A stretch of 64,000 bases of DNA. Source: Lentisphaera araneosa HTCC2155 (GTDB taxonomy: Bacteria; Verrucomicrobiota; Lentisphaeria; Lentisphaerales; Lentisphaeraceae). A program made the translations under genes and the position numbers. The notes under the pieces are model-generated. The model was not told the origin of the DNA, did not search any database, and was given only the letters and a program-made list of their open reading frames with translations. Of this stretch, positions 13,066 to 32,929 are shown piece after piece (the first letter of the stretch is position 1; each line of letters begins with the position of its first letter). Location: the NCBI RefSeq assembly GCF_000170755.1, contig NZ_ABCK01000007.1, forward strand, positions 124,001 to 188,000, read 5' to 3'.

Positions 13066-14274
13066 ATGAAAAGAAGAGATTTTTTAAAGTTAAGTGCCCT
13101 TGGAGCTGCGGCTCCGATGAATTCATTTGCCGCAAAAAAAGAAGATGAATTCCGCGTAAAATTAAAGAAAAACGTCGTCCTCGTGAATTTGGACTTGGGG
13201 CTTTATGCGCCGCACTTTCGCGATAATGGTGCGGACTGTAAATACATGACCGAGATCTTTTTTGAGTTTAAAGGTAAGATGACCTATTTAGATGGCATTT
13301 CTGAGCCAGGCATGGGTGGTGGACACGAATGTCAGCCGGCAAGTTTTACAGCTTTGCGCTATGACCATCGCGATCTTTATACAACACGAAAAATGATGTC
13401 CCTCGACCAGAAACTGGCAGATGGTTCAGTCCAGGAAACTCGCCACAAATTTTTGTATCATCAAGTCAATCGAGGTAGTAGCATGAGTTGGAATCGCTTC
13501 GAGCAACCGATTCCAGCCATCTCAGGGGCAAATGAACTTTATGAACAACTCTTTGCGAGAACTGACAAAGATTTGGATAAGGCACGAATTCGTCGTGAGC
13601 GTGATATTTTGGCTGCCTTATCTCGAAATATTCGTCGTCAATGGACGGGGACACCTCAAGAAACTGACATGAAAAATTCTTTGGATTACCAAGTGGATCT
13701 TTTGGATGAACGGGAAAAATGGCTCAAAGTTAAAAAACCTTACTTAAAGAAAACTTTTGGAGAGAATGAGGAACGTAATCCACTCCCTTCATGCTCAAAT
13801 AATTTTGATTTAGTTCACGAAGCTTTAATGAAGCAACAGACAAAAATAGCTTTTGTTCAATTTGGAGGAGGTAGCTTACAAAGAGGTATGGGCTTTGAAC
13901 TTGGTCATCATGCCAATGGTCACCATGCGGGGTATCCAGAAAGAATTTACGCCTGTGAGCAAATTGATACCGCGGTGCTGACTAATGTCAGAAGATTTTT
14001 ACGTAAGCTGCAAGAGAGCAATATTTTCGATGATACCATTGTGCTTTTTCATTGTGGCATGGGCAATGCAGCCGCACATGATTCTCGCCGTACGGCATCC
14101 TTCCTTTTCGGCGGTGGCTTTGCCCATAAGAAATCTATTAAATGCCTCGAAGGCAAAAAAGAGCATATTTATTCGACCTGTAACCTATTCTCTAGTGTCT
14201 TGAAGCAGAGTGGTTTCAGAGACTATTCCTTTAATAGTAGCAAGGAAGTGATTCCTGAACTTTTTAAGGCCTAG
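13066..14274 (+). CDS. Tat-exported DUF1552 family protein, unit 1
   Basis: This 402-residue protein has an N-terminal KRRDFLK twin-arginine motif and a short hydrophobic signal ending near FAA. The mature part follows the DUF1552 pattern: a beta strand NVVLVNLDLGLYAPHF, then GMGGGHECQ, MSLDQ, SMSWNRFEQP, a central helical part (ARIRRERDIL, LDYQVDLLDEREKWL), then LGHHANGHH, VLFHCGMGNAAAHD and LFGGGF. DUF1552 proteins are abundant in Planctomycetes, Verrucomicrobia and Lentisphaerota and are nearly always paired with PSCyt/PSD cytochromes; their biochemical role is not established. It is first of four paralogues here and is followed after 9 nt by its cytochrome partner. Confidence 0.88.
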   Translation: MKRRDFLKLSALGAAAPMNSFAAKKEDEFRVKLKKNVVLVNLDLGLYAPHFRDNGADCKYMTEIFFEFKGKMTYLDGISEPGMGGGHECQPASFTALRYDHRDLYTTRKMMSLDQKLADGSVQETRHKFLYHQVNRGSSMSWNRFEQPIPAISGANELYEQLFARTDKDLDKARIRRERDILAALSRNIRRQWTGTPQETDMKNSLDYQVDLLDEREKWLKVKKPYLKKTFGENEERNPLPSCSNNFDLVHEALMKQQTKIAFVQFGGGSLQRGMGFELGHHANGHHAGYPERIYACEQIDTAVLTNVRRFLRKLQESNIFDDTIVLFHCGMGNAAAHDSRRTASFLFGGGFAHKKSIKCLEGKKEHIYSTCNLFSSVLKQSGFRDYSFNSSKEVIPELFKA

Positions 14275-14283
14275 GGAGAGCAT

Positions 14284-17200
14284 ATGTCAGAGCAAGAAAA
14301 TTTACCCGCAATGACCGCGGAACAAAAAGAAAAACTGCGTTTGAAAATTGCAGAATTAGAGAGTCTTGAGCAAGAAATTGCCGAAGGAAAAATTCAGGGT
14401 GATGAAGCCGAAAAACTCCTCGATCAATCGATGTTGGAAATCGAAGCTGTCTTAGCAGAAGCCAAAGAACTTGAAGCGCAACTCCCGTCAAGTGTTGATT
14501 CAAATACTGAAACTTCAGTGGCGAGTGAAGAGTCCATAAATCCTGCGGGAAGCGCAAAAGAAACGCCTCTTGCAGAGAGCGCAAAAGAGCAGGCTTTAGA
14601 AGACCTTCCTGTTTTAAAAGCGAGCGGGGGTTCATTAGCCAAGCAAGTATTTGACGAGAAGCAAGCGGAACAAAAGAAAGCACCAAATCAACTCGATCAA
14701 TCTTTGGATAAATTTGATGAGTCTTTAAAATCCGAGGTGAAGCAGCCAAACTTTGAGGATAAGCCGAAGCCTTTACAAACCAAGTCAGGGAAACGCAAAA
14801 AGGGAACGACTAAAAAGAAACTTAAAGCTCCGAGCAAACCCGTGATTCGCGAAAAGAAGAAAGCTTTCCCATGGGGTAAAGTCGTGGCCTTATTAGTGAT
14901 TGCGGGGATCGCATTATCTTATAAAGATATCATGGCTTTTGTTAAACAGCAGCAGGCTGAGCTCGCGGAAAAGAATAAGCCTAAAGCCGTGAAGAAAAAA
15001 GAAGAGGTAACACCCAAGCCTAAACCCAAGCCCGTTGTTGTTGAAAAGCCTGTAGAAACAGAGCCCGAAGAGGAGCCTCAGAATTTCTTTCAGCCGCAAG
15101 AAAGCGATGTGTTTACGGGTGAACTCGTTCACTACAGTTTTAATCAGGTGCTGAAAGATAAATGTGTGACTTGCCATGGCGCGGAAGGAAAAGAAGTCGA
15201 AGGTGATTTTAATATTGCCTTACTGATTAAGTCGCGGGCTTCTAATTCTAAAGCTTGGGCAAAAGTTTATCGCAGTATTGATAAGGGAGAGATGCCTCCA
15301 CCGAAAGAGGACTACGAAGATTCTGTAGAATTGAAAGGGGAAGAAAAAGAACTGTTGCTCGCTTCAATCAAAGATATGTTTGAAGAACTGAAAGAAGGTG
15401 TGGCGACTCGAGTCTTGACTCCCTACGAGTTAGAGAACACGATGAACGATCTTTTTGACATTGATGTGAGTATGTATAATCCTTTTAAGTCGATGCATCA
15501 GACCTATTCAAAAGAATCCTATTACACTCACCAGCGCAAGGTTTTGAGTCCTTATTACATAAGTCAGTATTACAATATCCTCTATGATGTCTTACAGAGC
15601 TTTATCGGTTTGCGCCCCCAAGTGGATAAGATGGATGTGAAAACGACTTTGCCTGGTTCAGTTTACGCTGCCAAAGCGTTTAAAAATGAAACTCATATTC
15701 GTTGGCCACAGAGCAAACCTAAGCTTCACACCGGCTTTAATTTTGAGGATAAAACCGAGCGCAAAGCGACCAAGCAAGACCGCTATTTAGATGGCAATGA
15801 AAATGAACTCGTCAATAGCGTACTCGCGAAACGGACTTTACCTCCAGGGACCTATAAACTGACTTTTAAAGCTAGTACTGAAAACATGTCAATGAGCAAG
15901 ATTACAGAGAAGAAGTATGGTGAAGAAGTGGTGCGCATTTTTGATGAATACTTTGATCAAAATCCCAATCTCGCCATGCCGCTACATTTTCACTTAGAGC
16001 CACCAGATTTTGCGGATCCTTTTGCTCGAGGTAAATTTCTCGAGACCATTGAGGTTTCTTCTGAGGGTGAATACGGTATTGAATTCACTTTGCGTCGTCG
16101 CTCGGCCTTGGCCTGTAACACGACGGCAAAACTGCCTGCTCAACGTCAATTAGCCAATTTGATTTCTTATCACAAACATGGTGACAAGCACGAAAATAAA
16201 ACCATGCAGATCGAGATGAAAAACCTTTCTCAAAAAAGGTATGATTTCCCCATGATCAAGATCTCGAATTTAAAGATTGAGGGGCCGTATAATGTTCAGT
16301 TAAACCCCCTCTCTTTCAAAGAAGAGCAAAGGCTCAATAGTGATACGGAAATACGTGAGAAATTCCGCTATCTACACGCTTTTAACGGCATGAAATTTAA
16401 TGTAATCTACACCTACCTCTTTCGAGACTTCCAAAAAGATAAAATGAAGTACGAAGATGCTTACCGCAATGCCATGATCATGTTCTTTATGTCGCCAAAA
16501 TTTTTGATTCTCAATAGCGAACCCAAAACAATTGAGCAGAAAGTGCGTTACCTCTCTTATGCAGCTCACAAGTCAGCGCCTTCGCATGAATTTCATAAAT
16601 CATATTCAGATTTAAAGAAGCGCAAAGATGCCCTTGGACTTGGGAAATGGTTGATTGATCACGATCGCTTCCCGCGTTTTGTGCAAGCTTTTACTTATCA
16701 ATGGCTCAAGTTGGGAATCATTGAGCAAAACCAACCCGATACGGGAAAATACAGAAACTACTACAAAGATAATTTAGCCGATGCACAGCGCCTTGAAGCT
16801 GAGTTTTATTTGATGAATATGTTTCGTGAAAATCGTCCCGTACGCGAGTTAGTGGATTCAGATTATTCCTTCTGGAATCAGGCTTTAGAAAATTTTTATA
16901 CAGGTTCTTATCAGGGGCAAGAAAGTGATGATCTAGAAAACTTCGTGAAACGCTCTTCAAAAAATCAGCAACGCGGTGGTATCCTAACGATGGGGTCCTT
17001 TTTAACTGCCACGGGCAATGGCGTAGATCCACTGCCCCTTCGTCGTGCAGCCTGGATATCTGACAACCTATTGGATTCGCCTTTGCCTTCACCGCCCGAT
17101 GTGGATGTGGTTGATTTTGAGAATGAACGCAGTGGAAAAACACTTCGTGAACGCCTCGCCGTGCACGCTGAGAATCCCGCCTGTCATTCCTGCCATAAAC

Positions 17201-17511
17201 GTTTGGATTCGCTCGCGATTCTCATGGATAAATTTGATTCGATTGGCGGCTATAATAATCATTATAATCCCGAAGTCGTGAAAGTGAATGGAGAGAATAT
17301 TAACGATATCGAGGGCTTGAAAAAGTACTTGGGTGAATATGATCAGCCCATGGCGCGAGCCTTCACTCGCAAACTGATTAGCTTCATGATGGGGCGCGAA
17401 GTTGGCGTCAAAGATGAAGCGGTACTCGACGCCATTCTCAAAGCGACGGAGGCCGATGGCTACCGCGTTGGCGACCTCTACTCCCAGATTGTTAAGTACT
17501 ACTTATTTTAA
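14284..17511 (+). CDS. Membrane-anchored diheme PSCyt/PSD protein (DUF1587/1592/1588/1585), unit 1
   Basis: This 1,075-residue protein opens with an acidic helical cytoplasmic region (1-170, two predicted coiled helices), a Lys-rich stretch, one membrane span (about 196-214) and a Lys/Pro spacer (KPKPKPKP). Heme motif one is CVTCH at 294-298 in the PSCyt1 domain. DUF1587 follows (LTPYELENTMNDLFDID), then a beta-rich sugar-binding-like part, DUF1592 (YLHAFNGMKFNVIYTY onward), DUF1588 with LPLRRAAWISDNLLDSPLPSPP and heme motif two CHSCH at 967-971, and DUF1585 (ARAFTRKLISFMMGRE). Usual family members start with a cleavable signal peptide, so the cytoplasmic extension and anchor are unusual. A periplasmic electron-transfer role with the DUF1552 partner is inferred. 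Confidence 0.88.
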   Translation: MSEQENLPAMTAEQKEKLRLKIAELESLEQEIAEGKIQGDEAEKLLDQSMLEIEAVLAEAKELEAQLPSSVDSNTETSVASEESINPAGSAKETPLAESAKEQALEDLPVLKASGGSLAKQVFDEKQAEQKKAPNQLDQSLDKFDESLKSEVKQPNFEDKPKPLQTKSGKRKKGTTKKKLKAPSKPVIREKKKAFPWGKVVALLVIAGIALSYKDIMAFVKQQQAELAEKNKPKAVKKKEEVTPKPKPKPVVVEKPVETEPEEEPQNFFQPQESDVFTGELVHYSFNQVLKDKCVTCHGAEGKEVEGDFNIALLIKSRASNSKAWAKVYRSIDKGEMPPPKEDYEDSVELKGEEKELLLASIKDMFEELKEGVATRVLTPYELENTMNDLFDIDVSMYNPFKSMHQTYSKESYYTHQRKVLSPYYISQYYNILYDVLQSFIGLRPQVDKMDVKTTLPGSVYAAKAFKNETHIRWPQSKPKLHTGFNFEDKTERKATKQDRYLDGNENELVNSVLAKRTLPPGTYKLTFKASTENMSMSKITEKKYGEEVVRIFDEYFDQNPNLAMPLHFHLEPPDFADPFARGKFLETIEVSSEGEYGIEFTLRRRSALACNTTAKLPAQRQLANLISYHKHGDKHENKTMQIEMKNLSQKRYDFPMIKISNLKIEGPYNVQLNPLSFKEEQRLNSDTEIREKFRYLHAFNGMKFNVIYTYLFRDFQKDKMKYEDAYRNAMIMFFMSPKFLILNSEPKTIEQKVRYLSYAAHKSAPSHEFHKSYSDLKKRKDALGLGKWLIDHDRFPRFVQAFTYQWLKLGIIEQNQPDTGKYRNYYKDNLADAQRLEAEFYLMNMFRENRPVRELVDSDYSFWNQALENFYTGSYQGQESDDLENFVKRSSKNQQRGGILTMGSFLTATGNGVDPLPLRRAAWISDNLLDSPLPSPPDVDVVDFENERSGKTLRERLAVHAENPACHSCHKRLDSLAILMDKFDSIGGYNNHYNPEVVKVNGENINDIEGLKKYLGEYDQPMARAFTRKLISFMMGREVGVKDEAVLDAILKATEADGYRVGDLYSQIVKYYLF

Positions 17512-17610
17512 AGCTGTAAGCCTTAGCCGCTTCAAGAATATAGAGGCGAGTTATTAGGTATAAAACTTTTCATAATTAGGTTGAATAGAGGTCATGATGC
17601 TTTGCATACG

Positions 17611-17926: not shown

Positions 17927-19144
17927 ATGATTGACCGAAGATCGTTTTTAGCTTCAGCTATTGCTGGGGGACTCATTCCTGCAAATGGCATTTATGGGGC
18001 TTCCAAAAAAATTGAACCAAGAGTGAGTCTTAAGAAAAATATTGTTCTTTTGAGTTTAGATTTGGGACTCTATGCACCTAATTTCAGGGATAATGGCGCG
18101 CGCTGTAAATACATGACCGAGATTTTTTCTGAATTTAAGGGGCAGATGACCTACTTCGATAGTATTTCCGAGCCGCATATGGGCGGTGGGCACTCATGTC
18201 AGCCAGCGACTTTTACAACGATCTCTTATAAAAATCGGCAACATTACCCTGAACGCAAAATGATCAGTTTAGATCAGATTTTGGCCGATGGATCCATTCA
18301 AGAAACACGTCACAAGTATATTTATCATACCATAAATCCTGGCTCTACTATGTCGTGGAATCGCTTTGAGCAACCCTTGCCTGCAGTTGAGGGTGCCAAT
18401 AATTTGTATGAAACGCTTTTTGCGCGCACTGATGCTCGGCTCGATAAAGCAAGAATTCGTCGTGAGCGAGATATTTTAGCGACACTAGCGCGAAATCTTC
18501 GGCGTTATTGGGTGGGCAACCCTCAGGAAGTGGATATGCGGGCTTCTCTGGATTATCAGCTTGCCATTTTGGATGAGCGTGAAAAGTGGCTCAAGGTCAA
18601 GCAACCCTACCTCAAAAAGAGCTTTGGAGAAAAAGAAGAACTTAAACCGATTCCCTCCTGCCACAATAATTTTGATCTCATTTATGATGCATTGGAGAAA
18701 CAACAGACCAAAATTGCTTTAGTTGAGTTTGGTGCTGGTCGTCTCAACCAAGGCCTGTCAGGAGTTGAACTCGGTCACCATGGCAATACCCATCACGGGG
18801 GATATCCAGAAAGAATTTACGGTCTAGAAACTATCGATAGGGGCGTCTTGAATGGAGTTAAATATTTCTTACACAAGCTTCAAGAAGGTGGACTTTATGA
18901 TGATACGATTGTTCTCTTTCACTGCGGCATGGGCTATGCGACTTACCATACAAATAAAAAGGCCCCAGCACTTTTATTTGGCGGTGGCTTTAATCACAAA
19001 GAATCAGTTCAGTGCCTCAAAGGGCCTAAGGAGCATCGTTATGGTACAGCCAATCTATTTTCATCAATTTTAAAGCACGCGGGCTTCAAAGACTGGACTT
19101 TCCAGACTCAAAATAAATTGATTGATGAACTTTTTGAGGCTTAA
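17927..19144 (+). CDS. Tat-exported DUF1552 family protein, unit 2
   Basis: The protein has 405 residues from the ATG at 17927, chosen because GGAGA lies 7 nt upstream and the protein then begins MIDRRSFLAS, a twin-arginine signal; an in-frame start 51 bp earlier would bury that signal. DUF1552 landmarks are the same as in unit 1: NIVLLSLDLGLYAPNF, HMGGGHSCQ, SMISLDQ-equivalent, TMSWNRFEQP, ELGHHGNTHHGGYPERI, VLFHCGMGYATYH and LFGGGF. Only 3 nt separate its stop from the next start. The upstream region contains ACGCGTAC but no correctly spaced TTGTCA, so it may depend on another promoter or on read-through. Confidence 0.87.
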   Translation: MIDRRSFLASAIAGGLIPANGIYGASKKIEPRVSLKKNIVLLSLDLGLYAPNFRDNGARCKYMTEIFSEFKGQMTYFDSISEPHMGGGHSCQPATFTTISYKNRQHYPERKMISLDQILADGSIQETRHKYIYHTINPGSTMSWNRFEQPLPAVEGANNLYETLFARTDARLDKARIRRERDILATLARNLRRYWVGNPQEVDMRASLDYQLAILDEREKWLKVKQPYLKKSFGEKEELKPIPSCHNNFDLIYDALEKQQTKIALVEFGAGRLNQGLSGVELGHHGNTHHGGYPERIYGLETIDRGVLNGVKYFLHKLQEGGLYDDTIVLFHCGMGYATYHTNKKAPALLFGGGFNHKESVQCLKGPKEHRYGTANLFSSILKHAGFKDWTFQTQNKLIDELFEA

Positions 19145-19147
19145 TCG

Positions 19148-22100
19148 ATGAGTACAGGAAACCTTTCGGGGGGGGATATTCCCGGCTTAACTCGCGAACA
19201 AAAAGATTTATTAAGTAAAAAATTAAGCTACCTTGAAGACTTAGAGCTCCTGTTGGCGGCAGGTGAAATGAAAGGTGATGAAGCCGATGCTGAATTAGCG
19301 AAGACTTTAGCGGAAGTTGAGGCTATCATGGAGGAGGGGCGCAAGCAGGCTGAGTTAGAAGATGAGCTTGTCAAACTCCAGAAACTCGAAGAAGAGTTAG
19401 CTGCTGGAGTAGGTGAACCCGCGGAACTCGAAAAGGCATTAAGTGCCCCAACTAGCGAAGTTTCGTCAGGTGATCAATTGGATTCAATAGCTACAGATCC
19501 CATTCAGCCTAAAACAAATTCTGACGCCAAAGAAATCATTGAACCAGACCTAGAAAGTTTGCCTCGCTTAAGTCATTCGAAAGTTCACCAAAGTAATACA
19601 AGTGCCGAAGCTAAGGCAACAAAAGTGAAAGAAGAAGCCTTGCAGAAAGTCAGTTCAAGAACGGTGGGTGAGCAGAGTGATAAATCCAATCCTGACCCCA
19701 AAAATGAGCTTAAAGAAGCGCAAAAAAATAATCCAACTAGGCTTAAAACTAAGTCGAATACTGATAAAGAAAGTGCAGCACGCAAAGTTAGCCGAGCTAA
19801 ATCCAAAGGGAAGCCTAAGCTCAAAGTGCCCACAAAAATCCCAAGAGCTCGCCAGAAAAAGAGATTTCCTCTTGCTACAATTTTGTTTCTGATTCTTTTA
19901 GGGGCAGGGGGCTTTTATCATCAGCAAATTATGGATTTTGTTAAGACAATGCAGGAGGATGTGGCCTATAAGCCAGCGCCTGAAAAACCTCGTAAAAAGC
20001 CTGTTGTTCAAGTCAAGCCAGAACCCAAGCCAGAAGCTAAACCCGAGCCAGCGCCTGAGCCCATTAAGGAAAAGGAAGCAGAAGAAGCGCAGAATTTTTT
20101 TCAGCCAAACGAGGAAAATATCTTTACTGGCGAACTTAAGCATTATAGCTTTAATGAAGTTCTCGCGAACAAATGTGTGACTTGTCACGGTGCCGAAGGC
20201 AAGGAAGTGGGCGGTGATTTTAATATCCTTAGACTGATGAAATCTAGTGCGGTTAACGCAAAATCTTGGGCAAAAATTTATCGTGCGATTGATAAAGGCG
20301 AAATGCCACCGCGCATTAAGGATGAACCGGAGTCCGTGCCACTCGAAGTGGAAGAGAAGGAACTGGTGCTCGCCTCGATTAAGACGATGTACCAAGACTT
20401 GAAAGAAGGTATGACGACTCGCGTGCTCACGCCCTATGAAATCCAGAATACGCTAGGGGATTTATTTGAGATTGATTACGAGCAGTACAATCCATTGGCC
20501 AGTATGCATCAATCGTATTCAGAAAAGACTTTTTACACTCATCAACGCAAAATTTTGAGCCCACATTACTTGAGCAATTACTACAATCTTCTCTACGATA
20601 TTTTACAGAGTTTTATTGGACTTAGGCCCCAGGTTGACCCCCTGGATTTGGAGACCAAATTTCGTCAAGTTGGAGCGGTTCACTACAGTTTTAAAGATGA
20701 GTCGCACCTGCGTTGGCACATAGCGAGTAAACTCGTCACTCTAAATTTTAAGGACCTTGGTGAAAAGAAAGAAACAAAGCAAGATCGCTATTTAGATGGT
20801 AACGATAATCAATTAGTCAATAGTATGCTTGCCGCAAAATCTATCCCCCCCGGAACTTATACATTGCGATTTAAGGCCAGTTGTGAAAATATGTCCATGA
20901 GTAAAATCACTGAAGAAAAGTACGGCAAAAAAATTGTTGGGCATTATGAAAAGTTTTTTGAAGAAAATCTCAACCCAGTTCTGCCAGTTAAGTTTTATCT
21001 CGAACCCCCTGGTGTTGCCGATCCTTTTGCTAAACGGAAATATCTAGAAACTGTTGAAATATCATCCGAAGGCGAATATGCGATTCAATTTGTCGTGACG
21101 CGGCGCTCAGGAGTCGCTTTGCATTTAGATGAGCCAGGGATTATGGGGCAGGGCCATTTAGCTAGAAATATAGGCTACCATAGGCACGGGGAGCAATTGG
21201 AACTGAAGCAAATTGAAGGCATCAGTGCAGAACTCGGTAAAAAAGAGTTCGATTTTCCCATGGTGAAGTTTAGCGACGTTAAACTGGAAGGCCCCTTTGA
21301 GGTGAAGTTAAACCCCTTGTCATTTGATGAAAGAACCAAAATTAATGATACCGAAGTTCGTGAGAAATTTAAGTACCTCCATAGTTTCAATGGCATGAAG
21401 TTGAGTGTGATTTACACCTACATGTTTAGAGATTTGAGAAAACAAAAAATGAAAATGGAAGATGCTTATCGCAATACCTTGATCACCTACTTTATGTCTT
21501 CTAAGTTTCTTATTTTGAATTCGGCGGCGAAGAGTCTCGATGACCAGATTCGCTTCTATTCTTATGCAGCCCATAAATCACCTCCCAATGAGGATTTTCA
21601 GAAGGTATACACCTCTGCTTTAAGGGGGAAGAATCATATGAGTTTGGGAAAATGGCTCATAGATCACGAACGCTTTCGCCGCTTCAATAATGCCTTTACT
21701 TATCAGTGGTTAAAGCTTGGAGAAATTAGTAATAACCTACCCGATGAAGGAAAGTTTAGAGATTACTACCGCAAGAACTATGCCGACCTTCAGCAGAAAG
21801 AAGCTGAGATGTTTATGATGAACATGTTTAGAAAGAATCGGCCGATCACAGACTTAGTGAATGCAGATTACACTTTTGTGGATAAAGATTTGAAGGATTT
21901 TTACGGAATTCATTCCGAGGCAAGCTTTGGTACAGGTGAGTTTGCTCTGTTGAAAACCGGCAGTTCAGGGCGTGGTGGAGTTCTTAGTATGGGAGCTTTT
22001 CTCACTGCCACGGGCAATGGTGTGGATCCCCTTCCCCTTCGTCGTGCGGCGTGGATCTCTGAAAATATTTTGGACTCGCCTCTGCCCTCTCCTCCCGATG

Positions 22101-23263: not shown

Positions 23264-23601
23264 TGCTCCACTTACACGAACAATGATTAAATTTTTTTGA
23301 AAAAATCAATTTCTTTGTCTAAGTCTTTTAGGTTGAACCGTCTTTGATAGCAAGAGTTGAATAAAATCATTGATTTAATTCTTCTTTTAGCCGAAAGAGA
23401 AATAAGATCTGCAGATTCAGTACAATAAGTATAGGGAACTTATTTACTTGGTACGAAGTCATTTTTAGTTCGAATGTGAGTATCTAGTTGGTAGTTCATA
23501 TGAAAAATATAATAAAAAGTAATTTATTTTTGTGATGATTTGTAACTTTAGTGATTTTTTCTGGTTAAGGTTTATAAAGAATGTTATAAAATATGACAAA
23601 T

Positions 23602-23630
23602 TTGTCAAATAATTACTTTAAATATACGTT
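23602..23630 (+). promoter_or_regulatory. Predicted promoter, TTGTCA-N19-CGTT, for DUF1552 unit 3
   Basis: TTGTCA (23602-23607) and CGTT (23627-23630) are 19 nt apart and the second box is 37 nt before the ATG at 23668. The hexamer is the right half of a perfect 14-bp palindrome TGACAAATTTGTCA (23594-23607). The palindrome ends 60 nt before the ATG, exactly as the inverted repeat of unit 1 does. Confidence 0.5.
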
Positions 23631-23667: not shown

Positions 23668-24882
23668 ATGATGAACCGTAGAGGCTTTTTAGCTTCAAGC
23701 GCCGCAGGATTAACGATTCCAGCGAGCCAGTTGTCGGCAGCGAGTAAGAAAGTTGAGCCAAGAGTTAACTTAAAGAAAAATGTTGTTTTAGTGAGTTTAG
23801 ACCTCGGTCTTTATGCCCCCAATTTCCAAGAAAATGGTGCCAATTGTAAGTATATGACCGAAATTTTCTCGGAATTCAAAGGTCAAATGACTTATTTTGA
23901 TGGCTTGTCAGAAAAGGGCATGTCGGGCAGCCACGAATGCCAACCTGCAACTTTTACCACTATCCCCTACGAAGATCGCGAACATTATCCGCAAAAGAAA
24001 ATGATCAGTCTTGATCAGATTTTAGCGGATGGTTCCATACAAGAAACTCGCCATAAATTTCTTTACCATCGCATCAATCGTGGTTCGGCCATGTCTTGGA
24101 ACAAGTTTGAGCAGCCCTTGCCAGCTATTGAAGGAGCTAATGAGCTCTACGAAACACTTTTTTCTCGTACTGATACTAAGTTGGAGAAAGCGAGAATCCG
24201 TCGAGAACGCGATATCCTTTCAACTCTAGCGCGAAACCTTCGTCGTTACTGGCGTGGAAATATTCAAGAAGAAGATATGAAGGCCTCACTGGACTATCAG
24301 TTGGCCGTTTTAGACGAACGAGAAAAGTGGCTCAAAGTCAGTAAGCCTTATTTGAAAAAAGCTTTTGGCGAAAGAGATGAGAGACAGCCCATTCCATCTT
24401 GTGATAATAACTTTCAATTGGTTTATGATGCTTTAGAGAAAAAGCAGACTAAAATTGCCTTAGTAGAATTTGGCGCAGGGGGCTTAAATGCAGGACTTTC
24501 TGGTGTTGAACTTGGTCACCACGGCAACACTCACCACGGCGGCTACGCTGAACGTATTTACGCTTTAGAAACAATTGATACAGGTGTATTAACAGGCGTT
24601 AAAAACTTCCTTCACAAGTTGAAAGAAGGTGGTTTGTATGATGATACGATTGTCCTCTTCCACAGTGGCTTTGCCGATGCTTCTAAGCATACCAATAAAA
24701 AAGCTCCAGCCTTTTTGTTTGGTGGCGGTTTTAATCACAAAGAATCCATTGCCTGCTTAAATGGGAAAGAACACATTTATTCTACAAGTGATCTATTCAC
24801 AAGTATCCTCAAACAGAGCGGTTTTAATAATAAAACTTTTAGCAATAGTAAACAGGCCATCCCTGAGCTGTTTAAAGTTTAG
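23668..24882 (+). CDS. Tat-exported DUF1552 family protein, unit 3
   Basis: The protein has 404 residues from the ATG at 23668, preceded by GGAGA at 7 nt; translation then begins MMNRRGFLASS, a twin-arginine signal. The core follows its paralogues (NVVLVSLDLGLYAPNF, GSHECQ, AMSWNKFEQP, ELGHHGNTHHGGYAERI). It differs at two otherwise conserved spots: SEKGMSGSHECQ instead of GMGGGHECQ, and VLFHSGFADASKH where the other three have HCGM. A changed active or binding site is possible. The cytochrome partner follows after 8 nt. Confidence 0.87.
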   Translation: MMNRRGFLASSAAGLTIPASQLSAASKKVEPRVNLKKNVVLVSLDLGLYAPNFQENGANCKYMTEIFSEFKGQMTYFDGLSEKGMSGSHECQPATFTTIPYEDREHYPQKKMISLDQILADGSIQETRHKFLYHRINRGSAMSWNKFEQPLPAIEGANELYETLFSRTDTKLEKARIRRERDILSTLARNLRRYWRGNIQEEDMKASLDYQLAVLDEREKWLKVSKPYLKKAFGERDERQPIPSCDNNFQLVYDALEKKQTKIALVEFGAGGLNAGLSGVELGHHGNTHHGGYAERIYALETIDTGVLTGVKNFLHKLKEGGLYDDTIVLFHSGFADASKHTNKKAPAFLFGGGFNHKESIACLNGKEHIYSTSDLFTSILKQSGFNNKTFSNSKQAIPELFKV

Positions 24883-24890: not shown

Positions 24891-27800
24891 ATGAGTGATA
24901 ATCAAGCTACGCCCGAAGAGGGTGGTTCTGTACCTATGATGAGTCCGGAGCTTAAACAAATGCTCCGCGATAAACTCGCCGAACTCGAGGCCTTAGAGAC
25001 ACTAATTGCCAAGGGTGAGGTTCCGAAAGAGAAGGCCGATCATTTGTTGAGTCAAGGCATGGCTGAAGTTGAAGCCATACTTGAAGTGGGACGTGAACTC
25101 GAACGCGAATTTAAAGCCAATCAAGAAGTTGCAGAACCAGCTCTAGCTGAGGTGCAAAGTCCTACTCCAGAGGCAGCTCAAGTGAGTACAGATTTAGAAG
25201 ATCTACCAAAGTTGGGTGCCTCTCCACGAGAAGTACAGTCGACTCATGAACCCAAGTCTGTTTCTGCAGAAGAAAAATTTGCCGCAGCTAAAAATAAAGT
25301 CAAAGCTTCTGCAAGTAGTGAGAAAGCTCAGAAACCTAATTTCGATGCTAGAAAACAAACTTCGTCTGAAGCCTCTCCCCACAAAAAAAGCAAATCTAAA
25401 CTTACTTCAAAGAAAAAGCTTAAAGTCCCGACAAAAGTTCCTCGTAGGACTAAGAAAAAATCTTTCCCAATTGGTACGGTACTCCTACTTTTGATTATCG
25501 GTGCGGGTGCATTTTTCTATAAAGATATCATTGGCTTTATTAAGCAACAACAAGATGAACTTGCGGAAAAGAATAAGCCCAAACCCGTTGTCAAAAAAGA
25601 AAAACCGAAGCCTAAGGCCAAGCCCAAACCGAAGCCCATAGTTGTAGAGAAACCTGTAGAAAAAGAGCCCGAAGCAGAACCACAGAATTTTTTCCAACCC
25701 AATGACGAGAATGTTTTTACGGGCGAGTTAACTCATTTGAGTTTCAATGAAGTCCTCAAAAATAAATGTGTGACTTGTCACGGAGCTGAAGGCAAAGAAG
25801 TTGAGGGTGATTTTAATATTGATCGTTTGATCGCATCCAAGTCATTGAATTCCAGAACTTGGGCCAAAGTTTACCGTAGCATTGACAAGGGGGAAATGCC
25901 TCCTCCTGTGGAAGACGAACCCGATTCAATACCTCTTGAAAACGAAGAGCAAGAATTACTTCTAACATCAATCAAAGTCATGTTTGAAGACCTCAAAGAA
26001 GGGGTGACGACACGCGTGATGACTCCCTACGAGATTCAGAACACCTTGGGAGACTTATTTGACATTGACTACTCGCAGTATAACCCTGTAGCTGATGTAC
26101 ATAACTCTTATTCAGAAAAGAGTTTTTATACGCATCAACGCAAGATTTTGAGTCCGCATTACCTCAGTCGTTATTACAATATCCTTTACGATATGTTGCA
26201 GAGTTTTATTGGCTTACGTCCGCAACTTGATCCTCTCAATCAATCCGTTAAATTTCCGAGCACGCCTTTTCATGTAAGGAACTTTGGAGCCGTAACTCAT
26301 GTGCGCTGGCCACAGTATAATCCAGCGTGGTATTGCTCATTAAATTTCAAGGATCTCTCAGAGAAAAAAGAAACTAAGCAGGATCGCTATTTAGACAATA
26401 ATAATAACGAAATTGTGAATAAAATGCTAGCTGCCCGCTCGCTACCACCAGGGAAGTATCGTCTCACTTTCACAGCGAGTTGCGAAAATATGTCTTCGAG
26501 TAAGATCACTAAAGAAAAGTATGGGGAAGCCATTGCCTCTCATTATGAGCAGTTGTTTGAAGAAAACCCCAACCCCACTATGCCGGTGCGTTTTTATTTA
26601 GAACCCCCGGGAACCGCCGATCCATTTGCTAGACTTAAGTATTTGGAAACGATAGAGATTTCTTCCGAAGGTGAGTATGGCATTGAATTTGAAATTAAAC
26701 GTCGTTCGGGCGTCTCCTTTGCTCTTGACTGGAAAAATCTAATTGGCCGTAATCGTTTGGGCAATATGCTTGCGTATCATAGGCATGGAGAAGATGCCGG
26801 AGAAAAAGAACGTGAAGAAGCACGAGCTTTCATGGACAGAAAAGAATATGACTTTCCTATGATTAAAATCACTAATCAAAAAATCGAAGGCCCCTTTGAT
26901 GTGAAGTTGAACCCCTTGTCATTTGATGAAAGAACTAAAATTAACGACATGGAAGTACGCGAGAAATTTAAGTATCTCCATTCCTTTAACGGAATGAAGC
27001 TAAGCGTCATTTACACTTATATGTTTGGCGATTTACGCAAACAAAAAATGAAGATGGAAGATGCTTATCGCAATACGATGATCACCTTCTTTATGTCTCC
27101 TCGTTTCCTTATTTTGGATTCGATGGCTAAAACGATCGAAGATAAAATCCGTTATACTTCTTATATGACTCACAAGTCACCACCATCTGCGGAGTTCGCA
27201 GCCATGTATAAGTCAGCCACAAAGAAAAAAGATTATAAGACTCTAGGGAATTGGCTGATTCAACATAAGAATTTTAGACGCTTTTCTAATGCTTTTACTT
27301 ACCAATGGCTCAAACTAGGTGAGATTAACAATAATTTACCTGACGAGGGGAAATTCAGAAGCTATTATCAGAATGAAATGGAGCGACGTCAGCGTCAAGA
27401 AGCGGAGTTGTTCTTACTGAATATGTTCCGTGAAAATCGTCCCATCTTGGAATTGGTCCAAGCCGATTACAGTTTCATGGATAAGGGTTTGATGGATTTT
27501 TATGGTCTCTATACGGGCAATATGTCAGATGATGGCTTGTTCTCGAAGGTTGATGCCAAAAAGGCTGGTCGTGGGGGTGTTTTAAGTATGGCAGCCTTTT
27601 TAACAGCCACTGGCAATGGCGTGGACCCTCTCCCCATTAAACGTGCAGCTTGGATTTCTGAGAATATTCTCGATTCACCCTTGCCTTCACCTCCAGATGT
27701 GGATGTGAATGATTTTGAAGATACTTCAACGGGAAGAACTCTCCGTGAACGTTTAGACGTTCATGCTCAAAACCCCGCATGTCATTCCTGCCACAAGCGT

Positions 27801-28109
27801 TTGGATTCATTAGCTATCCTCATGGATAAATACGACTCCATTGGTGGACTCAATAATCATTACGTTGCAGATCCAGTCAAAATTAATGACCAAAAGGTCT
27901 CTGATGTGACTCAATTGAAGGCCTACCTCGAGAACTACTCAAAACCCATGGCTCGAGCTTTCTCCAAGAAACTCATTAGTTATATGAGCGGCCGTGAACC
28001 AGGTGTTCAAGATGAAGCTAAACTTGACATGATCTTAGCTGAGACTAAAGAAAATTCCTATCGAGTTGGTGAGCTCTACGCAGCTATATTGAAGTATTAC
28101 GTCCTGTAG
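24891..28109 (+). CDS. Membrane-anchored diheme PSCyt/PSD protein, unit 3
   Basis: This 1,072-residue protein has an acidic helical cytoplasmic domain (1-185), one membrane span near 196-214 (IGTVLLLLIIGAGAFFY) and a long Lys/Pro spacer (KPKPKAKPKPKP). CVTCH is at 293-297 and CHSCH at 964-968. The DUF1587, DUF1592, DUF1588 and DUF1585 segments occur in the family order. The C-terminal segment reads SGREPGVQDEAKLDMIL, like unit 4 and unlike units 1 and 2. A terminator follows, so this pair is a self-contained transcription unit. Confidence 0.88.
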   Translation: MSDNQATPEEGGSVPMMSPELKQMLRDKLAELEALETLIAKGEVPKEKADHLLSQGMAEVEAILEVGRELEREFKANQEVAEPALAEVQSPTPEAAQVSTDLEDLPKLGASPREVQSTHEPKSVSAEEKFAAAKNKVKASASSEKAQKPNFDARKQTSSEASPHKKSKSKLTSKKKLKVPTKVPRRTKKKSFPIGTVLLLLIIGAGAFFYKDIIGFIKQQQDELAEKNKPKPVVKKEKPKPKAKPKPKPIVVEKPVEKEPEAEPQNFFQPNDENVFTGELTHLSFNEVLKNKCVTCHGAEGKEVEGDFNIDRLIASKSLNSRTWAKVYRSIDKGEMPPPVEDEPDSIPLENEEQELLLTSIKVMFEDLKEGVTTRVMTPYEIQNTLGDLFDIDYSQYNPVADVHNSYSEKSFYTHQRKILSPHYLSRYYNILYDMLQSFIGLRPQLDPLNQSVKFPSTPFHVRNFGAVTHVRWPQYNPAWYCSLNFKDLSEKKETKQDRYLDNNNNEIVNKMLAARSLPPGKYRLTFTASCENMSSSKITKEKYGEAIASHYEQLFEENPNPTMPVRFYLEPPGTADPFARLKYLETIEISSEGEYGIEFEIKRRSGVSFALDWKNLIGRNRLGNMLAYHRHGEDAGEKEREEARAFMDRKEYDFPMIKITNQKIEGPFDVKLNPLSFDERTKINDMEVREKFKYLHSFNGMKLSVIYTYMFGDLRKQKMKMEDAYRNTMITFFMSPRFLILDSMAKTIEDKIRYTSYMTHKSPPSAEFAAMYKSATKKKDYKTLGNWLIQHKNFRRFSNAFTYQWLKLGEINNNLPDEGKFRSYYQNEMERRQRQEAELFLLNMFRENRPILELVQADYSFMDKGLMDFYGLYTGNMSDDGLFSKVDAKKAGRGGVLSMAAFLTATGNGVDPLPIKRAAWISENILDSPLPSPPDVDVNDFEDTSTGRTLRERLDVHAQNPACHSCHKRLDSLAILMDKYDSIGGLNNHYVADPVKINDQKVSDVTQLKAYLENYSKPMARAFSKKLISYMSGREPGVQDEAKLDMILAETKENSYRVGELYAAILKYYVL

Positions 28110-28137
28110 TAAGTTTTGAATTAGAGGGCTTTGGAAT

Positions 28138-28179
28138 AAATCGACAGATCCGTCTTAGGGCTGTCGATTTTTCTTTTTT
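28138..28179 (+). terminator. Rho-independent terminator after unit 3
   Basis: AAATCGACAG pairs with CTGTCGATTT around a 13-nt loop, followed by TTTTCTTTTTT. It begins 29 bp after the stop of the unit 3 cytochrome gene. Confidence 0.85.
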
Positions 28180-28321: not shown

Positions 28322-29533
28322 ATGCTCAACCGTCGATCATTTTTAAGTTCTGTTGCAGCCGGAGGGCTTTTACAATCGGCCAATACTTTCGCCGCAAGTA
28401 AAAAACCTGAGTATAGAGTCAATCTTAAGAAGAATGTAGTTCTCATAAATCTTGATCTCGGACTCTACGGGCCCAATTTCCGTGAGGGCGGTGCGTCCAG
28501 TAAGTATATGACCGAACACTTTTCTGAGTTTAAAGGACAAATGACTTATTTTGATGGCATTTCTCAGCCGGGGATGGGAGGAGGACATGAATGCCAGCAT
28601 GCGACTTTTACGGCCTTGAAATATGAGCATAGGGAGAACTACCCCGAAAAAGTGATGATGAGCTTGGATCAAGTTATTGCAGATGGATCAATTCAAGAAA
28701 CTCGCCACAAGTTCCTCTATCACAAGTTAAATAAGAGCGGCAATCACATGTCGTGGAATCGTTTTGAGCAACCAATGATTTCCATTGATGGGGCCAATAG
28801 CCTATATGAAACACTCTTTTCTCGATCTGACACACGTTTAGATAAAGCCCGCATTAGAAGAGAGCGTGATATCTTATCGACTTTAGCACGTAATTTACGT
28901 CGTTTTTGGCGCGGTAACCCGCAAGAGGAGACGATGAAAGCTTCGCTTGATTATCAGTTGGCAGTTTTAGATGAACGTGAAAAATGGCTCAAGGTTTCGA
29001 AACCTTACCAAAAGAAAGCCTTTGCCGAAAATGAAGAGAACCAGCCAATCCCATCATGCGATAATAATTTTCAATTAATCTATGATGCTTTGGAAAGAGA
29101 GCAGACAAAAATTGCTATTGTACAGTTTGGCAATGGCAGGTTACAGGAAGGCTTAGCTGGCGTTGAATTGGGGCACCATGGCAATACACACCACGGGAAT
29201 TATCCTGAGCGCATACGTGGCTTAGAGATCATTGACGCGGGCGTCTTAACGGGAGTTAAAAACTTTCTGCATAAACTTCAAGAGGGTGGTCTTTACGATG
29301 ATACTATTGTGTTATTTCACTGTGGCATGGCCAATGCCTGTCATCACGATAATAAACGTGCACCGGCCTTCCTTTTCGGTGGTGGTTTCCAGCATAAAGA
29401 ATCAATTGCCTGCTTAGATGGTAAAGAACATATATATACCACATCAAATATGTTTAATTCTGTCTTAAAACAACTTGGCTTTTCGAACCCCAGTTTTCAA
29501 AATGATTCAAAAATTGTTGAAGAACTTTTTTAG
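28322..29533 (+). CDS. Tat-exported DUF1552 family protein, unit 4
   Basis: This 403-residue protein starts at an ATG with GGAGA upstream and begins MLNRRSFLSS, a twin-arginine signal. It has DUF1552 landmarks as in units 1-3: NVVLINLDLGLYGPNF, GMGGGHECQ, HMSWNRFEQP, ELGHHGNTHHGNYPERI, VLFHCGMANACHH and LFGGGF. A weak promoter-like pair TTGTTA (28244) and CGAT (28267) lies upstream with 17-nt spacing, less convincing than those of units 1 and 3. The stop is 12 nt before the cytochrome start. Confidence 0.87.
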   Translation: MLNRRSFLSSVAAGGLLQSANTFAASKKPEYRVNLKKNVVLINLDLGLYGPNFREGGASSKYMTEHFSEFKGQMTYFDGISQPGMGGGHECQHATFTALKYEHRENYPEKVMMSLDQVIADGSIQETRHKFLYHKLNKSGNHMSWNRFEQPMISIDGANSLYETLFSRSDTRLDKARIRRERDILSTLARNLRRFWRGNPQEETMKASLDYQLAVLDEREKWLKVSKPYQKKAFAENEENQPIPSCDNNFQLIYDALEREQTKIAIVQFGNGRLQEGLAGVELGHHGNTHHGNYPERIRGLEIIDAGVLTGVKNFLHKLQEGGLYDDTIVLFHCGMANACHHDNKRAPAFLFGGGFQHKESIACLDGKEHIYTTSNMFNSVLKQLGFSNPSFQNDSKIVEELF

Positions 29534-29545
29534 GCTTAAGATTAG

Positions 29546-32500
29546 ATGAATATCGATGATAATAATGAGGGGACTAATGCTCCAGAAGGTGGACTCCGCT
29601 TAACTCGTGAGCAGAAGGATACACTCAAGGCCAAGCTCGACTACCTCGAACAACTCGAAGGCGATTTGGCTGCAGGAAAATTAGAGGGTGGCGAGACTGA
29701 AAAGCTTTTAGAGCAAACCTTATTTGAAATCGATGAGATCATGAAAGAGGGCGAGGCACAAACAGCGAATGCTCAGGACTTGTCAGTTGAAGCAGCGCCC
29801 ATTCAAGAAATTCCACCAGCGCCAGTTACAGGCAGTAAAGAGTTTGTCGCCCAAAATCCTTTATCATCAAGTACGAATTCGAGCCGAAAATCAGATCTAA
29901 AAATCCAATTGAATGAAGATCTGGCTAGTATAGATCAAGACAATTCCTTAAATGCACAGAAAGAGAATGCTCAACAGCAAGCTTTACAAGAGGCTCGTGT
30001 TTTGTCTTCTCAATACGGGGATGATAAAGCTAGTGTCGAAAATTTAAATGGGGATGAACTCAATAATTTAAAGCGCGTAAAACCTCAAGCAAATGATGCG
30101 AAAGCTCAGCTTCTCGCTAAAGCTTCAGAAGTAAAAAGAACTCAAGAGAACGCGTTGGCAGAAGTAAATAAACAGAAAGCAGTCACAAAGACGAAGAAAA
30201 AAACGAACAAGGGAAAAATCAAAGCTAAGCAAAAAATGCGCGTTCCCACCAATCGTCCTAAAGTCAAAAAGAAGAAAAAATTTCCAATCGGCACTCTCCT
30301 GTGTTTGATCGTACTTGCGGCTCTAGGCGTCTATCATCAAGAGATTATTGATTATGTAAAACAACAGCAGGCCGAGCTCGCAGAGAAAAATAAGCCCAAG
30401 CCAGTAAAGAAAAAAGAAGTAAAACCCAAGCCTAAAGTCATTATCAAAAAAGTTGAGCCCGTAAAGAAAGCAGAACCTGAAATTGATGAGAAGAGCATCA
30501 ATTTATTTCAACCTGAAGAAAGCGATGTATTTAAAGGCGAATTGAGCCATTTTAGTTTTAACGAAACACTCAAGAATAAGTGTGTGAACTGCCACGGTGC
30601 GGAAGGCAAAGAAGTTGAAGGGGATTTTAACATCGCTCGTTTGATGGCCTCTAAAGCGGTAAATTCAAAAGCTTGGGCAAAGGTCTATCGCAGTATCAAT
30701 AAAGGCGAGATGCCACCGCCAGTAGAAGATGAACCCGATTCAATTCCCTTAGAGAAAGAAGAACAAGAACTCGTTTTAGCTTCCATTAAATTGATGTTTG
30801 ATGACCTCAAAGAAGGCATGACCACACGAGTTTTAACCCCGTATGAAATTCAAAATACCATGGGCGATTTATTCGATATTGATTACGAGCAATACAACCC
30901 TTTGAAAACTTTGTATCAATCTTATTCGGACACCAAATATTATTCTCATCAGCGCAATATTTTGAGTCCGCATTACATCAGCCGTTATTACAATATTCTC
31001 TACGATGTCTTGCAGAGTTTCATTGGTTTGCGCCCGCAAGTTGATCCTCTCGATATGATTGTGAAATTCCCGTCTCAGGGTTTCAGTTGTGTCGAGTTTA
31101 AAAAATTAGGGGAAACTCATTTGCGATGGTCGCAATATAAGCCCCGCCTTTATAGTTCGATTTACTTCGAAGATATCACCGAGCGCAAGGAAACTAAGCA
31201 AGATCGCTACCTCGATGCGAATGAAAATGAACTCGTCAATAAAGAGCTAGCCGAACGTGTCTTGCCCCCAGGTACTTATACTCTAAGGTTTAAGGCGAGT
31301 AATGAAAATATGAATATGAGCAAAATTACCGAGAGTAAGTACGGCAAAGAATTGGTTTCGCTCTACGAAAAGTTTTTTGAAGAAAACGATACATTGGTTA
31401 TGCCCGTACGTTTCTATCTCGAACCCCCCGGAGTATCCGACCCCTTTGCCAAGCTGAGGTATTTAGAGACAATCGAGATTTCCTCTGAAGGTGAATACGC
31501 TATTGAATTCACGATTAAACGTCAATCGGCCTTGGCCTATAGTCTCGATTGGAAGAGTCTCCCCAGTTTGAGAAGAATCGGCTACCTCAGTGCTTTGAAT
31601 AAGCATGGAGATAAATTAGAACTCAAACATATCGAAGCAGAGACCCCGCTCTTCACAAAAGAAAAATATGATTTTCCCATGGTGAAGTTCAGCGAAATGA
31701 GTCTTGAGGGGCCTTACGATGTTGTGCTTAATCCCATGTCTTTTGACGAAAGGACGAAAATCAATGATATGGAAGTTCGAGAAAAGTTTAAGTACTTACA
31801 TGCTTTTAATGGCATGAACTTTAATGTAATTTACACCTACATGTTCAGAGATTTGCGCAAGCAAAAGATGAAGATGGAAGATGCCTACCGCAATACGATG
31901 ATCAGCTTCTTTTTGTCGCCGCGTTTTTTGATTATTGATTCCGCCGCCAAAACCCTTCAAGACAAATTGCGCTATGCTTCTTATGTGACTCATAAATCTG
32001 CTCCCAATGCGGAGTTCGCAGAAAACTATACGGCAGCCATAAAGAAAAAAGATCACAAAAGCTTTGGGGATTGGTTGATCAAGAATGATCGTTTCCGTCG
32101 TTTCTCCAATGCCTTTACCTATCAGTGGTTAACTCTAGGCCAAATAGACAATAATCTGCCAGATGAAGGTAAGTTCAAAAATTACTATAGGGATAACATG
32201 CAATCCTATCAGCAGCAAGAAGTGGAAATGTTTATGATGAACATGTTTCGCAATAATCGCCCCGTCACTGATTTGGTGAACTCAGATTATGCCTTCTTGA
32301 ACAAAGAGCTGATGAAATTTTATCGATTGAATACTAAAAATGCGCCTGATTCTGGTGTGTTTATGCAAGTCGATACCTCAAAATCTGAGCGTGGTGGCAT
32401 ACTGACTTCTGGTGCCTTTCTAACTGCGACGAGCAATGGTGTCGATCCTCTTCCCATCCGTCGCGCGGCATGGATATCGGAAAATATACTCGACTCGCCC

Positions 32501-32929
32501 TTGCCCTCGCCACCAGATGTGGATGTCAATGACTTTGAAAATGAAGTGGGTGGAAAAACCTTGCGGGAACGTCTTGAAGTACACGCCAAAAATCCTGCCT
32601 GTCATTCCTGCCACAAACGTTTGGATTCTTTTGCGATTCTTATGGATAAATATGATTCAATTGGCCATTACAATGACAAGTTCTCCCCGGCGCCAGTGCA
32701 AATTAACGATAAAAAAATCACCGATATCAGCGCGCTCAAGGAGTATTTAAGTACTCATTCAAAACCCATGGCACGAGCCTTTACCAAAAAGCTGCTGAGC
32801 TTTATGCTGGGTCGTGAACCGGGTGTCCAAGATGAAGCCAAGTTAGATATTATCTTATCTGAATGTGAACCAGAAGATTATCGCGTTGGCGACATCTACA
32901 CCGCGATTTTAAAACAGTATTTTTTATAA
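29546..32929 (+). CDS. Membrane-anchored diheme PSCyt/PSD protein, unit 4
   Basis: This 1,127-residue protein is the longest of the four because its cytoplasmic part (1-250) is extended with Gln/Asn/Ala-rich helices. The membrane span is near 252-270 and is followed by a Lys/Pro/Val spacer. Heme motif one is CVNCH (346-350) instead of CVTCH; the second is CHSCH (1019-1023). DUF1587 (LTPYEIQNTMGDLFDID), DUF1592, DUF1588 (LPIRRAAWISENILDSPLPS) and DUF1585 (ARAFTKKLLSFMLGREPGV) are present. It is the last member of the tandem array; a sigZ-type sigma gene begins 73 bp downstream on the same strand. Confidence 0.87.
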   Translation: MNIDDNNEGTNAPEGGLRLTREQKDTLKAKLDYLEQLEGDLAAGKLEGGETEKLLEQTLFEIDEIMKEGEAQTANAQDLSVEAAPIQEIPPAPVTGSKEFVAQNPLSSSTNSSRKSDLKIQLNEDLASIDQDNSLNAQKENAQQQALQEARVLSSQYGDDKASVENLNGDELNNLKRVKPQANDAKAQLLAKASEVKRTQENALAEVNKQKAVTKTKKKTNKGKIKAKQKMRVPTNRPKVKKKKKFPIGTLLCLIVLAALGVYHQEIIDYVKQQQAELAEKNKPKPVKKKEVKPKPKVIIKKVEPVKKAEPEIDEKSINLFQPEESDVFKGELSHFSFNETLKNKCVNCHGAEGKEVEGDFNIARLMASKAVNSKAWAKVYRSINKGEMPPPVEDEPDSIPLEKEEQELVLASIKLMFDDLKEGMTTRVLTPYEIQNTMGDLFDIDYEQYNPLKTLYQSYSDTKYYSHQRNILSPHYISRYYNILYDVLQSFIGLRPQVDPLDMIVKFPSQGFSCVEFKKLGETHLRWSQYKPRLYSSIYFEDITERKETKQDRYLDANENELVNKELAERVLPPGTYTLRFKASNENMNMSKITESKYGKELVSLYEKFFEENDTLVMPVRFYLEPPGVSDPFAKLRYLETIEISSEGEYAIEFTIKRQSALAYSLDWKSLPSLRRIGYLSALNKHGDKLELKHIEAETPLFTKEKYDFPMVKFSEMSLEGPYDVVLNPMSFDERTKINDMEVREKFKYLHAFNGMNFNVIYTYMFRDLRKQKMKMEDAYRNTMISFFLSPRFLIIDSAAKTLQDKLRYASYVTHKSAPNAEFAENYTAAIKKKDHKSFGDWLIKNDRFRRFSNAFTYQWLTLGQIDNNLPDEGKFKNYYRDNMQSYQQQEVEMFMMNMFRNNRPVTDLVNSDYAFLNKELMKFYRLNTKNAPDSGVFMQVDTSKSERGGILTSGAFLTATSNGVDPLPIRRAAWISENILDSPLPSPPDVDVNDFENEVGGKTLRERLEVHAKNPACHSCHKRLDSFAILMDKYDSIGHYNDKFSPAPVQINDKKITDISALKEYLSTHSKPMARAFTKKLLSFMLGREPGVQDEAKLDIILSECEPEDYRVGDIYTAILKQYFL

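Follow-up and report, generated by a model that had tools for sequence, protein, structure and literature searches.

A head-to-tail array of four two-gene units in the genome of Lentisphaera araneosa HTCC2155 belongs to a large family of obligate gene pairs, of which it forms a diversified branch that is tethered to the membrane. Each pair codes for a DUF1552 protein with a predicted sulfatase-type fold and a diheme PSCyt/PSD protein; the array is real and is partly explained. It lies in the window analyzed in this study, a stretch of 64,000 nucleotides of contig NZ_ABCK01000007.1, and its features are listed below in window coordinates.

Organization of the array

13066..14274 (+): unit 1 DUF1552 protein, 402 aa; PF07586, E = 1.8e-21; Tat signal; HANGHH motif
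14284..17511 (+): unit 1 membrane-anchored diheme PSCyt/PSD protein, 1075 aa; PSCyt3 (E = 1.9e-22), PSD4, PSD2, PSCyt1
17927..19144 (+; start in the open reading frame list, 17876): unit 2 DUF1552 protein, 405 aa; PF07586, E = 1.1e-20; ATG behind GGAG; HGNTHH motif
19148..22510 (+): unit 2 PSCyt/PSD protein, 1120 aa; Pfam matches; 3' end resembles unit 1
22634..23263 (+): HAD-family hydrolase between units 2 and 3; PF00702, E = 5e-15
23668..24882 (+): unit 3 DUF1552 protein, 403 aa from 23671; PF07586; HGNTHH motif; model with alkaline-phosphatase superfamily fold
24891..28109 (+): unit 3 PSCyt/PSD protein, 1072 aa; Pfam matches, TM prediction, structure model
28140..28178 (+): intrinsic-terminator-like hairpin 3' of unit 3; RNA fold of -20.8 kcal/mol, z = -3.7, followed by a T run
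28322..29533 (+): unit 4 DUF1552 protein, 403 aa; PF07586, E = 3.1e-25; HGNTHH motif
29546..32929 (+): unit 4 PSCyt/PSD protein, 1127 aa; Pfam matches; CXXCH at residues 346 and 1019
33003..33560 (+): SigZ-family ECF sigma factor, a neighbor gene downstream of unit 4; TIGR02959, E = 2e-58

As the sequence-only reading had described, the four units are intact and lie head to tail, with gaps of 9, 3, 8, and 12 nt between the two genes of a unit, and the tandem layout is confirmed by four-copy direct-repeat families at a spacing of 4.7 to 5.7 kb in a repeat search. All four first genes match PF07586 (Pfam E = 1e-20 to 3e-25; 75 to 90 bits) above its curated cut-off of 30 bits, and all four products carry an RR Tat motif near the start. 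The second genes contain PSCyt1, PSD4, PSCyt3, and PSD2 in this order, with PSCyt1 of unit 2 under the cut-off, and each product has exactly two CXXCH motifs and one transmembrane (TM) helix, which agrees with the earlier description of a membrane-anchored diheme protein. In unit 1, the hairpin of the PSCyt/PSD protein is encoded at approximately 14305-14490 and the TM helix at approximately 14863-14919, and the CXXCH motifs are at residues 294 and 967. The listed open reading frames of the DUF1552 genes in units 2 and 3 start too far upstream; the likely starts are 17927 and 23668/23671, each preceded by GGAG. The position of the HAD-family hydrolase is kept in L. marina (L085 13372-14001), and this gene is probably outside the two-gene unit. 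Since the HAD gene lies between units 2 and 3 and the terminator-like hairpin between units 3 and 4, the array is not one simple operon.

The upstream regions differ among the four units. The palindrome TGACAAATTTGTCA is found at 12992-13005 (one mismatch) and 23594-23607 (exact), 61 to 64 nt before the likely ATG codons of units 1 and 3; it was rejected as a shared operator, as units 2 and 4 lack it and its L. marina counterpart is degenerate. SigZ is also present downstream of unit 4 in L. marina (61%) and was rejected as the array regulator, as it was not found beside the pairs of the relative genome G001. No Rfam match for a structured RNA was obtained, and a promoter/terminator scan found no excess. 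Directly upstream of the array, a 176-nt intergenic repeat is present in two copies that are 91% identical (12323-12498 and 12643-12818), and its core has no other copy in the window or in the related loci compared. A search for anti-phage defense (PADLOC) gave no match among all eight array proteins, and a phage, plasmid, or viral origin was rejected, as no match was found for the unit 3 DUF1552 protein or the clade profile.

Pairing and co-inheritance of the two genes

The surveyed genome (6.02 Mb, 81 contigs) contains 38 DUF1552 and 38 PSCyt3 genes, and all of them form adjacent same-strand pairs (38/38), in the order DUF1552-PSCyt in 21 and reversed in 17. The array accounts for four of these pairs, and 34 further pairs are located elsewhere; two-unit tandems also occur apart from the array, which is larger than the other local duplications seen. 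The sister family PSCyt2 has 27 further matches in the genome. PSCyt3 genes are paired in L. marina (33/33), G001 (24/24), and G003 (6/7), i.e., in 63 of 64 cases together. G003, a fragmented draft of 370 contigs, contains one unpaired DUF1552 match, and the unpaired DUF1552 matches in G001 and L. marina are partial sequences. Pairing of the two families is thus established.

The distances among the DUF1552 proteins and among their PSCyt partners are correlated with a mirror-tree r of 0.96 over the 38 pairs, and the best of 2000 permutations gave 0.27; with the array clade left out, r is still 0.96 and the best permutation 0.50. The genus-level trees of the two families are congruent at all well-supported nodes, and either tree requires at least four reversals of the gene order, through all of which the partners stayed together. 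The sequence-only reading had proposed a co-evolving two-protein unit that incongruent trees together with single-gene transcripts would refute; the congruent genus trees and the genome-wide correlation pass the tree part of this test and support the proposal. These results show that the partners were co-duplicated and co-inherited, which is not the same as physical contact; the latter is inferred.

Of 340 sulfatase candidates in the genome, at least 151 are matches, and protein kinases gave 105 matches. Neither the kinase genes nor the best 150 of the 340 sulfatase candidates are enriched within 5, 8, or 12 kb of the pairs relative to random placement, and within 5 kb these sulfatases are even fewer than expected. 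A sulfatase or kinase neighborhood was accordingly rejected as a functional clue, as these genes are not nearer to the pairs than chance.

Predicted fold and conserved site of the DUF1552 protein

The AlphaFold2 model of the unit 3 DUF1552 protein (pLDDT = 86, pTM = 0.87) supports an alkaline-phosphatase/sulfatase fold. The model matches carrageenan sulfatases in Foldseek (E = 2e-6) and is similar to NPP, PafA, and sulfatases (VIA Z up to 16.1, rmsd = 4.0, number of aligned residues = 245). In a profile comparison, residues 120 to 387 align with sulfatases of the same genome with an E value of 4.7e-4 and a probability of only 33%. Neither the DUF1552 nor the PSCyt/PSD protein has a significant sequence relative in the PDB.

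Four residues (His88, Asp115, His284, and His288, in unit 3 numbering from 23671) are invariant in 53 of 53 DUF1552 sequences, and position 113 is always Ser or Thr. Judged from the secondary structure and the motif register, His88 appears to lie in the initial turn of the helix that usually bears the nucleophile in this superfamily, and no Ser, Thr, or Cys is conserved at this turn. The C/S-x-P-x-R formylglycine signature of S1 sulfatases is absent; the segment reads like GGGHECQPATFT, with no conserved Cys or Ser, and the DN motif of sulfatases is replaced. The His/Asp set is probably a metal site that replaces the sulfatase active site, and the hydroxyl group at position 113 could serve as the nucleophile. 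The HXXSHH signature reads HANGHH in unit 1 and HGNTHH in units 2 to 4. Its first two histidines are His284 and His288, conserved in all 53 sequences of the family, whereas the Ser and, in canonical members, the last His vary. Because the histidines are kept in the array despite the loss of the Ser, the array proteins are probably not dead copies.

Predicted topology, heme motifs, and jelly roll of the PSCyt/PSD protein

The PSCyt/PSD model (pLDDT = 73) consists of two N-terminal helices, a low-confidence linker, a TM helix, and a folded periplasmic part. All four array proteins have their single TM helix at residue ~190-265, and none has an N-terminal signal peptide. The unit 3 protein contains, in order, the hairpin (residues 19 to 79), the TM helix (approximately 191 to 209), heme 1 (293 to 297, with Met336), the carbohydrate-binding module (CBM)-like segment (446 to 670), PSD4 (757 to 873), heme 2 (964 to 968, with His958), and PSD2 (1001 to 1067). 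PSD3 and PSD5 were not found at E = 0.01 in the array proteins, whereas of the 10 canonical proteins of the same genome that were scanned, nine contain PSD5 and eight contain PSD3. The search of the whole model gave no PDB relative for its helical part, which was not folded alone, so this result says little.

The first CXXCH (Cys293-His297) together with the MPP motif (Met336-Pro-Pro) is conserved in 37 of the 38 PSCyt proteins, and the motif suggests that heme 1 is ligated by Met336. The second CXXCH (Cys964-His968) is conserved in 38/38 and His958 in 36/38. Residues 446 to 670 form a predicted jelly roll whose best match is CBM36 (Z = 9.4, rmsd = 2.7, number of aligned residues = 111), closely followed by CBM35, CBM22, CBM6, and CBM29; the likeness is at the level of the fold only (Foldseek E = 0.012), and jelly rolls are a common fold. 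Orthologs share 91% identity in this segment and paralogs only 54%, and the corresponding values for PSCyt3 are 93% and 84%, respectively. Such a pattern is what would be expected if recognition had diverged and the redox core had been kept.

Divergence and retention of the four units

The four units and two singletons (C5:203411 and C22:71434) form one divergent clade. With an array-clade profile, members were found in 4 of 288 genomes sampled across the phylum, all of them Lentisphaeraceae; members are also present in a fifth genome of this family, G005. The syntenic array of L. marina lacks unit 2; its units 1, 3, and 4 are accompanied by the HAD, SigZ, and FMN-reductase genes that also neighbor the L. 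araneosa array. Units 1, 3, and 4 diverged before this species split from L. marina, and unit 2 was probably lost in L. marina, because it also branches off before the split in the tree. An array-clade DUF1552 protein shortened to 167 aa was observed in G001 (L090:5847-6350, +); it has no PSCyt partner and seems to stem from a unit in decay.

The DUF1552 orthologs of units 1, 3, and 4 in L. marina are 93 to 96% identical (dN/dS = 0.025 to 0.06), with unit 1 at 96% and a dN/dS of 0.025, and the PSCyt/PSD orthologs are 87 to 89% identical (dN/dS = 0.04 to 0.07); for unit 4, the identities are 93% and 89%, the latter with a dN/dS of 0.07. The paralogs within the array are only ~70% (DUF1552) and 55 to 60% (cytochrome) identical. 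The last 180 nt of unit 2 are 80 to 88% identical to unit 1, compared with 73 to 85% between unit 1 and its own L. marina ortholog; by this measure, the 3' end of the unit 2 PSCyt/PSD gene is a tract of localized gene conversion with unit 1.

The sequence-only reading had offered selection either for dosage or for diversified substrates or partners. The former is not supported, given paralogs this far apart, different upstream regions, and orthologs under strong purifying selection, and the latter gains indirect support from the CBM-like segment, which differs far more between paralogs than between orthologs. Conserved orthologs with low dN/dS, diverged paralogs, and differing upstream regions argue for four separate, selected functions, i.e., for retained diversification and not for dosage.

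Cytoplasmic heads and the hairpin-TM module

A long N-terminal head precedes the TM helix in 12 of the 38 PSCyt proteins and is lacking in the other 26. Six of the heads are hairpins (the array clade), five have paired CxxC motifs, and one is an FHA domain (E = 2.9e-14). The CxxC heads are zinc-ribbon-like by inspection, and a scan of four of them gave no zinc-ribbon Pfam match at E = 0.01. The FHA-headed PSCyt3/PSD protein (L034:2492-5743, -) is paired with a DUF1552 gene, and its TM helix was judged by eye. Homologs in a sister genus have a CxxC head, which in three of them is followed by a stretch that is kinase-like by sequence (Pkinase E = 0.003 in one).

The hairpin-TM module also occurs outside the pairs, where its matches reach only E = 8e-5 to 2e-6. 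In L. marina, it is found on a 607-aa protein (L117:5941-7764, -) that shares 47% identity with a GH71/99-like hydrolase over its C-terminal part and is encoded next to a sulfatase, and as a stand-alone 214-aa protein (L118:5918-6562, +) encoded between sulfatases and a PSCyt2-DUF1501 pair. A shortened relative is located at a contig end of the L. araneosa genome, after a sulfatase. Because the module is shared with a glycoside hydrolase and adjoins the sister pair, these findings favor a docking role of the hairpin in glycan breakdown. A broader idea is that the proteins form a modular bitopic class: a common periplasmic machine of diheme, jelly-roll, and DUF1552 parts would be joined to exchangeable heads in the cytoplasm (hairpin, FHA, zinc-ribbon-like, or kinase-like) and would either dock glycan-degrading enzymes into one inner-membrane assembly or report the glycan or redox state to the cytoplasm. 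Such a heme-based glycan system spanning the membrane would be undescribed, and we regard it as a doubtful proposal.

Proposed function and alternatives

The explanation that we tentatively prefer, at somewhat less than even chances, is a membrane-tethered periplasmic redox/hydrolase complex that acts on glycans, with units specialized for different glycans. In this view, the two products of each unit are indispensable to one another as halves of a single complex held at the inner membrane. The DUF1552 protein would be exported prefolded via Tat, and its partner is predicted to be a type II membrane protein with a cytoplasmic hairpin, a basic linker, and a TM helix; in the periplasm, two heme-c domains would enclose the CBM-like jelly roll and the helical PSD domains. 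The jelly roll may bind a glycan or oligosaccharide on which the putative DUF1552 metal site acts, and electrons may travel via the two hemes to the respiratory chain. The hairpin would dock the complex at the cytoplasmic face, and the four units would be kept because each has its own ligand range. In favor of the glycan link are the CBM-like jelly roll, the hairpin-TM module on the GH71/99-like hydrolase and beside the sulfatases and the DUF1501/PSCyt2 pair, and the CBMs and epilimnion bias of PSCyt proteins in freshwater Verrucomicrobia (PMC5615132). Counting against the preferred explanation are the chance-level distances of the pairs from sulfatase and kinase genes, the fold-only CBM match, the modest E values of the hairpin outside the pairs, and the possible nucleophile at position 113.

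The alkaline-phosphatase superfamily fold of DUF1552, the jelly roll in its partner, and the sulfatase matches of the genome (at least 151 of the 340 candidates) would suit a plain phospho- or sulfo-esterase that the PSCyt/PSD protein anchors and supplies with glycans, the hemes being structural or passive. However, DUF1552 lacks the C-x-P-x-R signature and has another sequence in place of the DN motif, and the heme motifs with their predicted axial Met and His are kept in 36 to 38 of the 38 proteins, beyond what a passive role needs; we consider such an enzyme rather unlikely. A function of the diheme proteins as peripheral respiratory electron carriers without a glycan link, e.g., in extracellular electron transfer, would account for their place at the inner membrane and for the many copies per genome, but such a carrier would not be expected to contain a CBM-like jelly roll or to have a partner with a sulfatase fold, and only two hemes are present, which makes this role very improbable.

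The heads raise the alternative of a transmembrane glycan or redox receptor, in which the periplasmic pair senses and the cytoplasmic head (hairpin, FHA, zinc-ribbon-like, or degenerate kinase-like) relays the signal. The 12 long-headed proteins, the kinase-like remnants in the sister genus, and the 105 kinase matches in the genome are in its favor, as is the ECF factor RB10049, which was proposed as the regulator of a PSCyt2 protein in R. baltica (PMC2754498). On the other hand, most of the PSCyt proteins (26/38) have no head, kinase genes are not enriched near the pairs, SigZ was not found beside the G001 pairs, and the hairpin on the GH71/99-like enzyme points to docking, so that a receptor seems distinctly unlikely to us. 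That the tandem copies simply raise the amount of one activity is the reading to which we give hardly any credence: the head-to-tail order would fit it, as would the short tract of gene conversion shared by units 1 and 2, whereas the paralogs differ at 30 to 45% of residues, units 1, 3, and 4 are older than the split from L. marina, and their upstream regions differ.

Relation to known systems

In freshwater Verrucomicrobia, PSCyt2 and PSCyt3 genes usually adjoin genes of two unknown families, the function of which is unknown; some PSCyt proteins there carry CBMs, and PSCyt genes are more common in epilimnion genomes (PMC5615132). The DUF1552 protein RB9955 is among stress-responsive genes (PMC2754498). 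No functional assignment for the DUF1552 or PSCyt families was found in the literature searched. Of the earlier suggestion that the array is an undescribed system, the pairing itself is thus already published, whereas the membrane-anchored clade appears undescribed, and its cytoplasmic helical-hairpin and TM module is a new observation of this study.

The array shares its families, their adjacency, and the two heme motifs with the canonical PVC pairs of DUF1552 (HXXSHH, PF07586) and PSCyt1/PSD3/PSD5/PSD4/PSCyt3/PSD2 proteins. It differs from them in that PSD3 and PSD5 were not detected, PSCyt1 is near the cut-off, the signal peptide is replaced by an internal TM helix with a cytoplasmic hairpin head, and HXXSHH has drifted to HXXTHH or HXXGHH. 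The pairs of DUF1501 and PSCyt2/PSD1 (DUF1549/DUF1553) have the same plan, with a DUF1501 protein that shows a weak phosphodiesterase-family match next to PSCyt; however, they belong to other Pfam families, and the hairpin-TM module is a separate gene in one L. marina cluster. DUF1552 shares its predicted fold with S1 sulfatases, NPP, and PafA (Z up to 16) but has no sulfatase Cys/Ser signature, has a different His/Asp set, and has a constant cytochrome partner. The jelly-roll fold of residues 446 to 670 is common to CBM4/6/22/29/35/36 (Z = 9.4), with no sequence match. Several PVC genomes carry dozens of copies of these families, and the present results show the pair to be inseparable, tie DUF1552 to a predicted fold, and name the segments that differ between paralogs. 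The four diverged paralogs and their orthologs in the strain-level relative L. marina are a ready set that could settle the function of the family.

Further features were observed in the window downstream of the array. An ECF sigma factor (36094) is tightly grouped with three proteins without a Pfam match at 35209-37662 (+). A 160-aa protein with matches to the arrestin N- and C-domains (Pfam E = 3e-6 and 2e-4, respectively), which is unusual in bacteria, is encoded at 40210-40692 (-). At 45832-49115 (-), a protein with two cytochrome c domains and PA14 is followed by a DUF7133 protein, possibly a further heme/glycan pair of the PVC type.
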